DNA of 64,000 nucleotides from Nitratireductor thuwali (lineage in GTDB: Bacteria > Pseudomonadota > Alphaproteobacteria > Rhizobiales > Rhizobiaceae). A program made the translations under genes and the position numbers. The stretch is from assembly GCF_036621415.1 (NCBI RefSeq), contig NZ_CP030941.1, positions 4,090,001 to 4,154,000 of the forward strand. Reading direction: 5' to 3'. Shown here one piece after another: positions 35,098-39,897 of this stretch (the first letter of the stretch is position 1; each line of letters begins with the position of its first letter). The notes beneath the pieces are model-generated. The model was not told the DNA's origin. It ran no database searches and saw only the letters and a list, made by a program, of their open reading frames with translations.

Positions 35098-36957
35098 CTA
35101 GACTGCGGCCGGCTCGTTTTCGTCCTCACCAACAGAGCGCCTCGTCTCGTCGACCAACTCCCGTATTTCCCTCTCATCGAGGGTCTCCTTTTCCAGCAGA
35201 CGGCGGGCGGTTCGCTCCAGCGCGTCGCGGCGTTCCGTCAGCAGAGCGACGGTTCGGCCGAAGGTCTCGTCGACGATACGGCGCACCTCTTCATCCACCG
35301 CGGCGGCCGTCTCGTCGGAATAGCAGCGCTCCTGCGGGCCGTAGTAGGGCTGGTCGGTGGCCAGGAACGAGCGCCGGTCCTTCTCCAGCGCGATATGGCC
35401 GACCTTCTCGGACATGCCGTAGCGGGTGACGATGGCGCGGGCGATGTCGGTCACCTTGACGAGATCGTCGGCGGCACCGGTGGAAAGGTGGCCGAAGACG
35501 ATCTTCTCCGCCGCGCGGCCGCCCAGAAGCACCGCCATCTTGTTCTGCAGTTCCTCGAGCGTCATCAGGAAACGGTCCTCGGTCGGCCGCTGGATGGTGT
35601 AGCCGAGCGCGCCGATGCCGCGCGGGATGATCGAGACCTTGTGGACGGGGTCGGCGCCCGGCAGCGCCATCGCCACCAGCGCGTGGCCCATCTCGTGATA
35701 GGCGACGACCTCCCGCTCCTTCGGATTGAGCAGCCGGTTGCGCTTTTCGAGGCCGGCGACGATGCGCTCGACCGCGTTGTTGAAATCCTCCATCGTCACG
35801 GCTTCCGCCCTGCGGCGGGTGGCGAGCAATGTGGCTTCGTTGACGAGGTTGGCAAGGTCCGCTCCGGTGAAGCCGGGGGTCAGCGCCGCGATCTTCTCCG
35901 GTTCGACGTCCGGCGCGAGCCTGGCCTTTTTCAGATGCACTTCAAGGATCTGGATGCGGCCCCGCTTGTCCGGCCGGTCGACCAGCACCTGACGGTCGAA
36001 GCGGCCGGCGCGCAGCAGCGCCGGGTCGAGGATTTCGGGACGGTTTGTCGCGGCCAGCAGAACCAGCCCCGTCGAGGAATCGAAGCCGTCGAGTTCGACG
36101 AGCAACTGGTTGAGCGTCTGCTCCTTCTCGTCGTGCCCGCCGGCCATCGGGCCGATGCCACGGGCGCGGCCGAGCGCGTCGAGCTCGTCGATGAAGATGA
36201 TGGCCGGGGCCTTGGCGCGGGCCTGCTCGAACAGGTCGCGCACGCGCGCAGCGCCGACGCCGACGAACATTTCGACGAACTCCGAACCGGAAATGGAGAA
36301 GAAGGGCACGCCGGCCTCGCCGGCCACGGCCTTGGCGAGCAGGGTCTTGCCGGTGCCGGGCGGGCCGACGAGCAGAACGCCCTTCGGCATGCGTCCTCCC
36401 AGGCGGCCATAGCCCCGCGGGTCCTTCAGGAAATCGACGATCTCCTTGAGCTCGTCCTTGGCTTCGTCGACGCCGGCCACATCCGCGAAGGTGACGCCGG
36501 TGTCCGATTGGACGTAGATCCTGGCCTTGGACTTGCCGATCTGCATCAGTCCGCCGCCGAAGCCGCCGCCCATGCGATTGAGAATGAACATCCAGATGCC
36601 GACAAACAGCACCACCGGCACGACCCAGGACAGCAGATCGCGCAGGAAGGTGCTTTCGATCTGGCCGGTGACCACCACGCCGCGTTCTCGAAGCCGCTGG
36701 GCCAGCTCGGGCTCGACGCGGGTGGTGACGAACATCGGCCGCCCGTCGACGGGCTGCGTGAACGTTCCCTGGATGAAGCGGTCCGACACCGCGACTTCCG
36801 CTATCCTGCCCTCGTCGAGATAGGCCTCGAACTGGCTGTATGGAATCTGCGCCACCTGGGTGGCGGTCGTGAAAAGATACTGGAACGCCATCAGGATGAA
36901 GAAGGCGGCTATCCAATACCAGATGTTGAACTGCGTTTTCCTGTCCATCTCCATCAT
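35098..36957 (-). CDS. ftsH: FtsH-type ATP-dependent zinc metalloprotease
   Basis: A 619-residue inner-membrane protease. Two membrane helices (about 10-28 and 105-125) enclose a periplasmic segment, then an AAA domain with Walker A GPPGTGKT, Walker [12 protein letters not shown] and a zinc site HEMGH in the C-terminal peptidase. It should degrade damaged membrane proteins under stress. It ends the stress operon 156 bp after the SPW gene, and its ATG follows GGGAGGGG. As it lies in a stress locus with Hsp20 genes, it is probably an extra copy rather than the housekeeping FtsH, which usually follows tilS. Confidence 0.95.
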
Positions 36958-37082
36958 GTCCCCTCCCCGACCCGATCCGCCGATGAGGCGCGTTCGGCAT
37001 TGGTTGCCACGGTTGGGACGAAGGTCGGCGAACTGCGCTGGCTCCGAAGCTCAGGCGCAAAAGGCCTGGGCGCTGCGAAGCT

Positions 37083-37103
37083 GGCCCGGCACGGGGCCGG
37101 GCC
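37083..37103 (-). other. GC-rich hairpin between SPW and ftsH genes
   Basis: GGCCCGGC at 37083-37090 and GCCGGGCC at 37096-37103 give a perfect 8-bp stem with a 5-base loop. It is transcribed on the minus strand inside the operon. There is no T tract after it, so it is more likely an attenuator or mRNA-stability element than a strong terminator. Confidence 0.6.
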
Positions 37104-37113
37104 GGCTATAGCG

Positions 37114-37479
37114 TCACGCCGTCGAAAACGACCGGCCGCTGTCGAGCCACAGGCTGATCGCCGCCAGAACGGCGACGACGAGGCCGGCAATCACATGGAC
37201 CCACATCGCGCTCGCGATGGCCGAGAAGCCGATGACCCAGGGCGCGATAACGGCCCAAAGGCCGAGCACGACATTGGCCCATTCTTCAAGCTGATGGAAC
37301 GCCAAAAGCGCGGCAAGCGCGATCAGAGTCACGGCAGCGCCGACGATCCAGGCATTCCATGCGGCATGGGTTTCGGCCGTATAGCCCAGATACCAGGGCG
37401 ACAGCAGAAGACCGAGACCGGCGACGATATTGGCGATATCGAAAGCCGTCCGGTTATCGGAAGACAGAGACTTCAACAT
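37114..37479 (-). CDS. SPW-repeat membrane protein
   Basis: A 121-residue protein with four hydrophobic helices and the signature SPW/APW turns: LLLSPWYLGYTA near residues 24-35 and VIAPWVIGFSA near 78-88. Such proteins are found in stress islands, often beside Hsp20 or FtsH, and resemble HdeD-like membrane proteins. The ATG at 37477-37479 has a very good AAGGAGG. It starts 33 bp after the omega-like gene. Its stress role is inferred from neighbours. Confidence 0.85.
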   Translation of the reverse strand: MLKSLSSDNRTAFDIANIVAGLGLLLSPWYLGYTAETHAAWNAWIVGAAVTLIALAALLAFHQLEEWANVVLGLWAVIAPWVIGFSAIASAMWVHVIAGLVVAVLAAISLWLDSGRSFSTA

Positions 37480-37512
37480 CGTTCATTCCTCCTTGTCGGG
37501 TCGGTTGCGTCA

Positions 37513-37833
37513 TCAGTGAGCCGTCTCCCGCGGACGGGAGGCGGGTGCGGCGGCGGCGCTTCCAGAACCGCCGTCGCGAAGCCTGGAATCCGGATCGGGA
37601 GGAGGAATGGAACGCCATCCGCCCGCTCCGGGAAGAAACGGTGCAAGTTCGTCCTGTGTGAACGCGCCCGCTGCGATCTCACGCAGCGCAAGATCGCTCA
37701 CGCCGCCGTCGTCGATATCGAGCCTCGGCTCGGCGCCCTGGCTGAGAGCGCGGCTGCGCGCGGCGGCGGCAAGCGTCAGCGCGAACGGGTTCGGCAGAAC
37801 CCTTGCGCAATCGAAGATGACATGCGGATCCAT
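37513..37833 (-). CDS. RNA polymerase omega (RpoZ) paralogue
   Basis: A 106-residue protein. Residues 3-62 follow the omega-subunit pattern: DC near residue 8-9, PNPFALTLAAAARSR, then LSQGAEPRLD and DLALREIAAGAFTQDEL. In true alphaproteobacterial omega these are DCxxKVxNRFELVLLAxxRAR, ISQGAP and VALREIADE. Omega supports the RNA polymerase beta' subunit and, in other bacteria, affects ppGpp response. The C-terminus is Pro/Ala-rich and not conserved. The main rpoZ is normally elsewhere (near spoT), so this is a second copy. It is 9 bp after the NDUFS4-like gene. Confidence 0.75.
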   Translation of the reverse strand: MDPHVIFDCARVLPNPFALTLAAAARSRALSQGAEPRLDIDDGGVSDLALREIAAGAFTQDELAPFLPGAGGWRSIPPPDPDSRLRDGGSGSAAAAPASRPRETAH

Positions 37834-37842
37834 CGCTGCACC

Positions 37843-39189: not shown

Positions 39190-39236
39190 TGTTTCACTCC
39201 TTTCCGTTCGTTGGATCGACAAAGCTTTCCATCGGC

Positions 39237-39255
39237 GCCGGACGCACCGTCCGGC
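39237..39255 (-). other. Hairpin between the two Hsp20 genes
   Basis: GCCGGAC (39237-39243) pairs with GTCCGGC (39249-39255) around a 5-base loop. A smaller one, TTGTGC-GAA-GCACAA, lies at 39259-39273. Both are within the operon transcript. No T tract follows. Confidence 0.65.
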
Positions 39256-39286
39256 ACCTTGTGCGAAGCACAATGAGGGAAACGCC

Positions 39287-39763
39287 TTAGGCGGCCTGCT
39301 TCGCGGTCTCGCTCTGCCTCGACTCGACCTTGGGCAACGCCTCGCCGGCCTCGATCTCGATGCGGCGCGGCTTCATCTCTTCAGGAACCTCTCGCCTGAG
39401 ATCGATCGTCAGCAGACCGTTGACGAGGCTCGCGCCCACGACCTTCACATGGTCGGCCAGTTCAAACCGACGCTGGAAGGCCCGTCCGGCGATGCCGCGA
39501 TGCAGATACTGACCGTTGTCCTCGCCAGCCTTCTGACCGGACACGATGAGCATGTTCTGCTCTTGGGTGATGGTCAGCTCGTCCTGGCTGAAGCCGGCCA
39601 CCGCCATGGTGATGCGGTAGTCGTCCTCGCCAAGCTTAGCGATGTCGTAGGGAGGCCAGTTGTCGATGGTCTCGACGCGGCTCGCGGCTTCGAGCGCGTT
39701 CAGCATTCGGTCGAAGCCGATGCTCGACCGGAATAGGGGAGTGAAATCGATGGTGGTTCTCAT
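39287..39763 (-). CDS. Hsp20 small heat-shock protein, IbpA-like, ROSE-controlled
   Basis: A 158-residue small heat-shock protein of the IbpA type: MRTTIDFTPLFRSSIGFDRM, then IDNWPPYDIAKLGEDDYRI, then MAVAGFSQDELTITQEQNML and AFQRRFELADHVKVVGASLV, with the closing LTIDLRREVPEEMKPRRIEI. The start at 39761-39763 has an AAGGAGG site that is buried in a predicted hairpin. It is the first gene of the stress operon, behind an RpoH-like promoter, and so is expected to respond most quickly to heat. Confidence 0.94.
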   Translation of the reverse strand: MRTTIDFTPLFRSSIGFDRMLNALEAASRVETIDNWPPYDIAKLGEDDYRITMAVAGFSQDELTITQEQNMLIVSGQKAGEDNGQYLHRGIAGRAFQRRFELADHVKVVGASLVNGLLTIDLRREVPEEMKPRRIEIEAGEALPKVESRQSETAKQAA

Positions 39764-39765
39764 AG

Positions 39766-39863
39766 CCACATCCTCCTTTGAGCAACATGGGTACAAGTCC
39801 TTCCGTCGGGCGAATGCTCCGGCATCCGCCCGACATGCCGGCCCCGAAATGGGCATCCGGCAA
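39766..39863 (-). promoter_or_regulatory. ROSE-type RNA thermometer upstream of hsp20
   Basis: The minus-strand leader folds so that CCATGTTGCTC pairs with GGAGGATGTGG around an AAAG loop (39766-39790), with one bulged G. This hides the AAGGAGG site, and the UUGCU opposite the Shine-Dalgarno with a bulged G is the mark of ROSE elements in rhizobial hsp20 leaders. Upstream, GTCGGGCG...CGCCCGAC (39805-39834) makes a long stable hairpin of 13 bp, also as in ROSE. Heat should open the weak hairpin and allow translation. Confidence 0.85.
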
Positions 39864-39869
39864 GCAACG

Positions 39870-39897
39870 ATTTAGTTCGGTCTTTTGGTTGTTCAAG
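39870..39897 (-). promoter_or_regulatory. Predicted RpoH (sigma-32) promoter for the stress operon
   Basis: CTTGAA (39892-39897 on the minus strand) and CTAAAT (39870-39875) are separated by 16 bases. The first is a good RpoH -35 match; the -10 is only partly like the alphaproteobacterial RpoH box. The distance gives a leader of about 100 nt, fitting the ROSE element that follows. Confidence 0.55.

Follow-up and report, generated by a model that had tools for sequence, protein, structure and literature searches.

What does a cluster of heat-stress genes gain from a subunit of RNA polymerase and a piece of respiratory complex I? The question is raised by six adjacent genes of Nitratireductor thuwali (Rhizobiaceae; assembly GCF_036621415.1), whose genome of 4.75 Mb includes the 4.2 Mb contig C1 (NZ_CP030941.1). 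We analyzed a window of 64,000 nucleotides, positions 4,090,001 to 4,154,000 of this contig; all coordinates below refer to the window unless another locus is named. Positions 35098–39763 of the minus strand encode, in gene order, two small heat-shock proteins (Hsp20), an NDUFS4-like fusion protein, a paralogue of the RNA polymerase omega subunit, an SPW membrane protein and the protease FtsH. Judged from its sequence, the cluster is genuine, of a heat-type and widespread, and it is mobile, with transfer predicted from its distribution. We propose, at a probability of about 0.48, that it is a horizontally moving, heat-triggered proteostasis island that adds client-specific stabilizers for RNA polymerase and complex I. 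The features of the cluster are as follows.

39892..39897, minus strand: CTTGAA, resembling the -35 element of sigma-32 (RpoH) promoters, read from the sequence
39870..39875, minus strand: -10-like element CTAAAT, 16 bp from the -35 element, read from the sequence
39757..39860, minus strand: ROSE thermosensor leader, which spans the start of the first Hsp20 gene and its ribosome-binding site (RF00435)
39287..39763, minus strand: Hsp20, IbpA-like, 158 residues from the ATG at 39763 (PF00011, E 2.8e-19)
38680..39189, minus strand: second Hsp20, 169 residues (PF00011, E 3.2e-24)
37843..38604, minus strand: NDUFS4-like fusion, 253 residues, with an NDUFS4 domain at residues 42–118 and a C-terminal helical domain (PF04800, E 2.2e-24)
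37513..37833, minus strand: RNA polymerase omega paralogue, 106 residues, without the MAR motif (PF01192, E 2.9e-7)
37114..37479, minus strand: SPW repeat membrane protein, 121 residues (PF03779, E 3.9e-26)
35098..36957, minus strand: FtsH metalloprotease, 619 residues (TIGR01241, 791 bits, cut-off 600)

The positions of the open reading frames and their Pfam and NCBIfam matches agree with the six-gene set, and with the intergenic gaps of 97, 75, 9, 33 and 156 bp (in gene order), that had been described in an earlier interpretation made without database searches (the sequence-only reading). The first Hsp20 scored 154.7 bits against the NCBIfam IbpA model, under its cut-off of 212, and the Pfam domains of FtsH include Peptidase_M41 (E 3e-65) among others. 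Ordinary versions of these genes are found elsewhere in the genome: a canonical omega (beginning MARVTVED), a canonical NDUFS4, two further FtsH (making the cluster copy one of three M41 copies), four further Hsp20 and one further ROSE element. The cluster is therefore an additional, specialized copy. No internal sigma-70 promoter was found in the cluster, and terminator-like sites numbered 4 compared with 3.9 in shuffled sequences. A role as a defense system was also considered and rejected, as PADLOC, on four of the six proteins, gave only AAA-ATPase cross-matches to FtsH.

The sequence ahead of the first gene points to control by heat. The ROSE leader scored 63.2 bits against a gathering score of 45 and its predicted fold has an energy of -48.1 kcal/mol (z -3.71); together with the arrangement CTTGAA-N16-CTAAAT, this bears out the suggestion of the sequence-only reading that an RpoH-like promoter and a ROSE-type leader precede the cluster. 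The Rfam ROSE model matched 29 of 30 island loci scanned (30 of the 56 described below were scanned; the miss is L041). A sigma-32-like pattern lies 36–39 bases ahead of the start of ROSE in 25 of 30 sequences (the window and 29 others) compared with 0.17% of base shuffles; this pattern was chosen after inspecting the sequences and the figure describes rather than tests. Two earlier patterns were found in 15 of 31 sequences (3.1% of shuffles) and in 18 of 30 (1.3%), all with single-base shuffles. With the element at the start of the first gene, the cluster resembles the ROSE-controlled Hsp20 operons of rhizobia, in which an RpoH-like promoter and ROSE leader precede an IbpA-like hsp20. It differs from them in its further genes: another Hsp20 pair of this genome, likewise headed by ROSE (L095, 6620–7826; G000:C1, about 488.6–489.8 kb), has no fusion, omega or SPW gene beside it. 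Within the cluster, the sequence TGAGGTG occurs within 22 bases before the omega start codon in 44 of 51 paralogue copies with an intact start; in the window, this ribosome-binding-like sequence includes the stop codon at the end of the fusion gene. The arrangement suggests that translation of the fusion and of omega is coupled.

To what extent are these genes kept together elsewhere? We collected 56 loci, 47 from a scan of genome contigs for the fusion and 9 from 26 plasmid records carrying the omega paralogue; since the loci were picked for this gene (fusion in 47, omega in 9), its presence is no result, and what counts is which genes accompany it. Some of the loci are nearly identical copies. 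The order Hsp20-Hsp20-fusion-omega-SPW was found on one strand in 44 of the 56 loci (some matches are partial). Because this five-gene order recurs so often, the association of the genes is not due to chance. Five of the 56 loci contain Hsp20-Hsp20-fusion only and two contain the second Hsp20 and the fusion only, lacking omega and SPW in both cases, and an Hsp20 gene lies just upstream of the fusion in nearly all 56. FtsH was found within 3.5 kb in 21 of the 56 loci, with 18 of these matches covering more than 500 residues. The steady unit is Hsp20-Hsp20-fusion-omega-SPW; FtsH is its loosest companion, and FtsH and DegQ come and go. A search with omega alone among 199 genomes of the family gave matches in six other genomes at E <= 5.3e-18, and in all six loci returned for these genomes the second Hsp20 and the fusion lie beside omega (the same genomes contain two further copies). 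One more genome (G060) contains an omega fragment in the same gene setting (L012), while the weaker matches that were read (13 loci) are canonical omega.

Plasmids of Rhizobium, Sinorhizobium, Neorhizobium, Mesorhizobium, Shinella and Pelagibacterium have the same order, with interruptions in L026 (Shinella) and L031 (Pelagibacterium). It also occurs in several families on genome contigs, most of them not assigned to a replicon type. Plasmid p4 of the lentil symbiont Rhizobium bangladeshense PLR8-1a is annotated with the complete order together with DegQ and FtsH. Synteny confined to close relatives of the strain, which would have spoken against the sequence-only reading, is not what this distribution shows. 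In the annotated relatives, a DegQ gene follows SPW in L027, L028 and L030 and follows omega in L029, where the annotation has no SPW gene yet tblastn finds one; FtsH is annotated in L028 and L030, and GroEL close by in L025, L027, L029 and L031. For each of the six genes, the loci recorded as Mesorhizobium sp. J18 (L037) and Chelativorans sp. J32 (L038) agree in the positions of the matches and in rounded identity, and they are possibly close strains under two names.

The omega paralogue is recognizable as such by several comparisons. It scored 30.8 bits against the Pfam RNA_pol_Rpb6 family (cut-off 26 bits), and its profile found omega chains in the PDB (best 7ye1_E, E 3.9e-11). A structure model was confident over residues 1–66, and although Foldseek gave no match for it at E <= 0.001, the top matches were RNA polymerase omega chains (8e6z_E, E 4.5e-3, probability 1.00, 1.7 Å over 59 columns). 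The paralogue shares with RpoZ the fold, PF01192 and a colinear core (N-x-F, R-x-R, AL-x-EIA), and differs from it at the N-terminus, where the MAR motif of site 1, one of the binding sites of the alarmone guanosine tetraphosphate (ppGpp), is replaced, mostly by M[DN]P. The motif is present in none of 58 paralogue reading frames compared with all 13 canonical copies read, which come from loci holding no island genes and all begin MARVTVED. The 58 reading frames count the window’s own copy twice and include near-copies; the 51 with an intact start represent 39 distinct sequences, of which 35 have [DN]P at positions 2–3 and 36 have F at position 7. An upstream start restoring MAR was considered and discarded, as the open frame is just 3 codons longer. 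The alarmone motif has thus given way to a different conserved start, on a paralogue whose core is kept and whose tail drifts. The host beta-prime subunit keeps the site-1 stretches IREHPVLLNR and GQKETVIFCD, in which we take R417, K615, I619 and D622 of the E. coli sequence to lie.

The second unusual gene has a comparable design. Residues 42–118 of the fusion are similar to the NDUFS4 subunit of complex I from Paracoccus (8qby_Q, E 4.9e-18), and the two proteins have the central domain and the PLMG[WY]T loop in common; across an alignment of 48 sequences the loop is kept as PLMG[YW]TG.DT alongside the PF04800 domain. NDUFS4 is described as anchoring the N-module, with a rivet-like beta2-beta3 loop and a C-terminal coil that lies on the N-module (PMC11522691, PMC10897435). 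In our own reading, the PLMG stretch would correspond to the beta2-beta3 loop. The canonical C-terminal coil is replaced in the fusion by an extra helical domain: the canonical NDUFS4 of this genome ends SYAENFRYDRKVPWTH, whereas the fusion has no such end and continues into about 110 residues of predicted helices (blocks of the confidence score pLDDT, the predicted local distance difference test, of 78–92 in residues 141–240, but 69 for 211–220). The C-terminal domain had no Pfam family match and no match in a PDB sequence search, and comparison of its fold gave low-Z helical matches alone.

Within the order, a profile of the C-terminal domain gave matches (E <= 0.01) in 51 of 397 genomes. 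A class-wide search at E <= 1e-12 found it in this genome alone among 385; since plasmid copies exist in other orders, this sample misses copies. We looked further at 23 loci (L104–L126), the lower-scoring profile matches that were returned, mostly about 3.2 kb in extent. An hsp20 gene lies within the locus in 13 of the 23, with the domain downstream on the same strand in 12, and in 10 of these the domain starts 96–207 bases after the hsp20 match. These 10 loci are not independent, because seven belong to the GTDB family f35, two to f50 and one to f23. The small-protein family that emerges has no name and has a motif resembling DPxLsxxEKRaILxsWAsDa. One of the 23 loci (L106) has the order Hsp20-Hsp20-fusion-FtsH, without omega, and is the sole locus of this set with ftsH. 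We infer that the fusion may have originated when an NDUFS4 domain became attached to an hsp20-linked protein, with omega and SPW probably entering the block later. In L073 (7199–7432) and L080 (9787–10020), a second NDUFS4-like stretch lies a few kb away from the island, in the opposite orientation.

These results lead us to the following scenario. On heating, sigma-32 would transcribe the cluster and the ROSE hairpin would open. The two Hsp20s would act as holdases for unfolding proteins, and hopeless membrane and envelope proteins would be cleared by FtsH, joined in several relatives by DegQ. The omega paralogue, presumably assembled into the polymerase, may clamp beta-prime and help it refold, as ordinary omega does: ordinary omega is reported to bind both ends of beta-prime, to prevent its aggregation and to help denatured polymerase recover, with GroEL substituting when omega is absent (PMC7700224). 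Since the N-terminus of the paralogue lacks the MAR motif, a polymerase that contains the paralogue should be less responsive to ppGpp through site 1. In the fusion, the NDUFS4 domain may dock at the joint between the N-module and the Q-module of complex I, and the C-terminal domain, which has relatives next to hsp20 genes, could bring complex I to the Hsp20 holdases. The island would thus combine general holdases and proteases with spare fasteners for two large machines. Both odd genes seem to derive from small fastening subunits in which the machine-binding part was kept and one end was changed; this origin, and the company of Hsp20s and FtsH, point to general plus client-specific protection as the best reading. 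The sequence-only reading had pictured a module that holds unfolded proteins, degrades membrane proteins and adjusts transcription and respiration under one heat signal. Its framework is consistent with the tight cluster, the heat-type promoter, the ROSE leader, the wide synteny and a content unlike that of the stress islands discussed below. For the last two roles, “stabilize” seems at least as likely as “adjust”, because omega keeps beta-prime folded and is needed for heat acclimation in Synechocystis, where a strain lacking rpoZ dies at 40 °C (PMC4227741), and because NDUFS4 anchors the N-module.

Several observations weigh against this proposal. No FtsH match was found within 3.5 kb in 35 of the 56 loci; four of the 56 have short 3' flanks, and two of those without a match (L053 and L074) have short flanks. 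The omega paralogue falls under the NCBIfam cut-offs for rpoZ (NF001579, 20 of 58 bits; TIGR00690, 13.5 of 23.6). Its tail is weakly constrained, with a ratio of nonsynonymous to synonymous substitution rates (dN/dS) of 0.74 compared with 0.21 for codons 1–66, and some loci have frameshifts in it. As an intact start is also missing from 7 of the 58 reading frames, some omega copies may be decaying. Plasmids of Phenylobacterium and Skermanella contain Hsp20-Hsp20-fusion without omega (in Phenylobacterium with a hypothetical gene in between); because such sets exist, L106 included, omega would not be needed for the core function. The structure model of the fusion is poor over the NDUFS4 half (pLDDT blocks of 33–63), and because the canonical coil is missing, docking to complex I may differ from that of NDUFS4. 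Ten of the 23 C-terminal-domain loci have no Hsp20 at E <= 1e-10. Loss of MAR, finally, need not abolish site 1, given that the polymerase M7, with omega lacking residues 2–5 and three changes in beta-prime, bound ppGpp just about 2-fold worse (PMC7676912).

The last point also bears on the alternative that fares best, a transcription switch, in which the paralogue replaces omega in heat, the polymerase ignores ppGpp at site 1, so that growth-related or island promoters may stay active when the alarmone rises, and the stabilizing of beta-prime is secondary. The conserved replacement of the N-terminus ([DN]P and F7) and the site-1 stretches retained by the host beta-prime are what such a switch would call for. 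According to Myers and colleagues, the phosphates of ppGpp at site 1 are coordinated by omega residues 2–5, and when omega lacking these residues was added to an omega-free polymerase, binding of ppGpp was at background level (PMC7676912). The MAR motif is also present in the omega of an alphaproteobacterium, Rhodobacter capsulatus (PMC9638019). Myers and colleagues also report modest effects of losing site 1 alone in E. coli (PMC7676912), which together with M7 and the islands that have no omega makes a switch an unlikely main function. We are similarly doubtful of the combined version, in which a mobile element swaps in an omega that makes the polymerase ppGpp-blind at site 1 and at the same time bridges complex I to small heat-shock proteins.

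If client-specific stabilization were wrong in a simpler way, omega, the fusion and SPW might be passengers of little effect of their own, accompanying Hsp20 and FtsH genes that form the useful part. The loci without omega and SPW could be read in this sense, as could the omega and fusion copies that are truncated or frame-shifted. Comparisons of substitution rates do not favor it: the omega core has a median pairwise dN/dS of 0.21, each half of the fusion has 0.18 and SPW lies within 0.18–0.21, near the 0.19 of the first Hsp20 (HspA), with FtsH at 0.09 (Nei-Gojobori estimates, pairs with dS of 0.15–1.5, pairs not independent). As order and spacing are also conserved across families, we consider mere passengers quite improbable.

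Even less can be said for a role in delivery, whereby complex I and polymerase damaged by heat would be tagged for FtsH, with the fusion and the omega paralogue serving as the adaptors. The swap of the canonical NDUFS4 tail for a new helical domain would suit an adaptor, and FtsH belongs to the same cluster in the window and lies nearby in the 21 loci noted above. However, FtsH is not found near the fusion in the remaining 35 loci (L053 and L074 being short-flanked), whereas Hsp20 is near it in nearly all, and the C-terminal-domain relatives are accompanied by hsp20 in 13 of 23 loci and by ftsH in one. We regard delivery to FtsH as very unlikely.

Comparison of the setting of the cluster with a congener (G090) gave the following feature.

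34270..40487, no strand: segment unmatched in congener G090 (blastn, tRNA scan, junction reading)

The flanks of this segment are 83–92% identical to G090 in DNA sequence. In G090 the distance from tRNA-Ser(tga) to the EamA gene is 301 bp, while in the window these genes are 6.2 kb apart and enclose the cluster, a methyltransferase-like reading frame and a small reading frame. The G090 site is not cleanly empty, as about 300 bp of other sequence lie between tRNA-Ser(tga) and EamA. No convincing direct repeats flank the segment ends. Site-specific insertion into tRNA-Ser was rejected on this ground and because the tRNA end is not duplicated, and so was abnormal composition, as the guanine-cytosine (GC) content of the segment resembles its surroundings. 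The fusion gene is present in 32 plasmid records, 17 of them typed as conjugative, and the omega paralogue in 26; two island copies are located on one contig (L040, L041). In a tree of 44 fusion proteins, left from 57 once short or interrupted sequences had been removed, Phyllobacteriaceae, Brucellaceae, Devosiaceae and Methylobacteriaceae are mixed in one group with support 91/88, for which paralogy may also account, and one Rhizobiaceae group is nearly whole. Ordinary vertical descent of a lineage-specific heat operon with no mobility, already disfavored, is consistent with the unremarkable GC content, the lack of flanking direct repeats and the nearly whole Rhizobiaceae group, but is hardly credible in view of the plasmid copies, the two copies on one contig, the patchy occurrence (this genome and six others of 199 in the family, plus the G060 fragment) and the segment missing from the tRNA-Ser/EamA gap of G090. 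In another congener (G588), Hsp20, Hsp20 and SPW genes occur without a fusion or omega match between them (L145), on the same contig as the EamA gene.

Among known systems, the cluster is closest to the transmissible locus of stress tolerance (tLST) and would act alike. Both are mobile and include two small Hsp20s, FtsH, in several relatives a DegP-type protease, small membrane proteins and extra copies of core genes. For the island, mobile DNA with such content is represented by the plasmid copies, DegQ in L027–L030, FtsH in L028 and L030 and the G090 gap. The tLST core genes are dna-hsp20-clpG, and some alphaproteobacteria are reported to hold mostly the protein-homeostasis part (PMC8290217). 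The cluster is not filed as a tLST because this core is absent: its six genes include no ClpG/ClpK, dna, YfdX, HdeD or Trx, and none of these is named in the annotated relatives, whose PLSDB gene tables are incomplete; for ClpG/ClpK and dna this covers the annotated stretches of L025–L031, L033, L150 and L151. Conversely, the cluster has the omega paralogue, the NDUFS4 fusion, SPW and the ROSE leader. The sequence-only reading placed an RNA polymerase subunit and a complex I domain outside the island sets known to it, with which the main text of the tLST review agrees in naming no rpoZ, omega, SPW or NADH (PMC8290217). The plasmid stress region of Phenylobacterium zucineum (L150, PHZ_RS20025-20075) shares Hsp20, Hsp20 and the NDUFS4 fusion, and nearby it encodes FtsH, GroESL and a protease of the Do type; it differs in that no omega paralogue was found and in carrying a YbaL potassium-efflux gene, which brings its content closer to tLST. 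Its content is half-way between the island and tLST. The Phenylobacterium genome paper describes nine plasmid Hsp20s and a plasmid groEL-groES cluster, and its text does not mention FtsH or NADH.

In the open-access literature, we recognized no paper describing the six-gene set or such an omega paralogue. What is new is a mobile proteostasis island with an omega that lacks MAR and an NDUFS4 domain fused to a domain that is often hsp20-linked. Known stress islands carry general chaperones and proteases, to which the cluster adds altered accessory subunits of RNA polymerase and complex I under heat-type control. If our proposal is correct, a portable heat-tolerance kit can include protection of named machines, and a plasmid-borne subunit can change the alarmone control of polymerase. 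A natural omega without MAR would then also offer a direct test of the role of ppGpp site 1 in alphaproteobacteria, and the small-protein family often encoded beside hsp20, with no Pfam match, is a candidate partner of small heat-shock proteins.

One further feature lies within the omega gene.

37521..37577, minus strand: conserved pair of hairpins within the tail of omega, ahead of the SPW start (alignment of 27 sequences and pair counts)

The hairpins have 91.0% of cells paired compared with 88.7% in shuffles, with modest covariation, and the same covariation score was reached when they were shifted by -3. They are kept across loci although the reading frame differs between some of them.

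To the left of the island, phage-like genes were recognized by eye at 1592–34099 (portal, terminase, tail and primase-like reading frames). This region ends in a tyrosine integrase, the one member tested with Pfam, which adjoins tRNA-Ser(tga). The idea that the island is part of this prophage was rejected: the phage-type genes and the integrase end at 34099, with tRNA-Ser next, and because G090 has the same tRNA and an integrase-like fragment without the island, we take prophage and island to be separate events. Within the phage-like region, reading frames at 18793–21026 resemble, again by eye, an IS21-type istA/istB pair.

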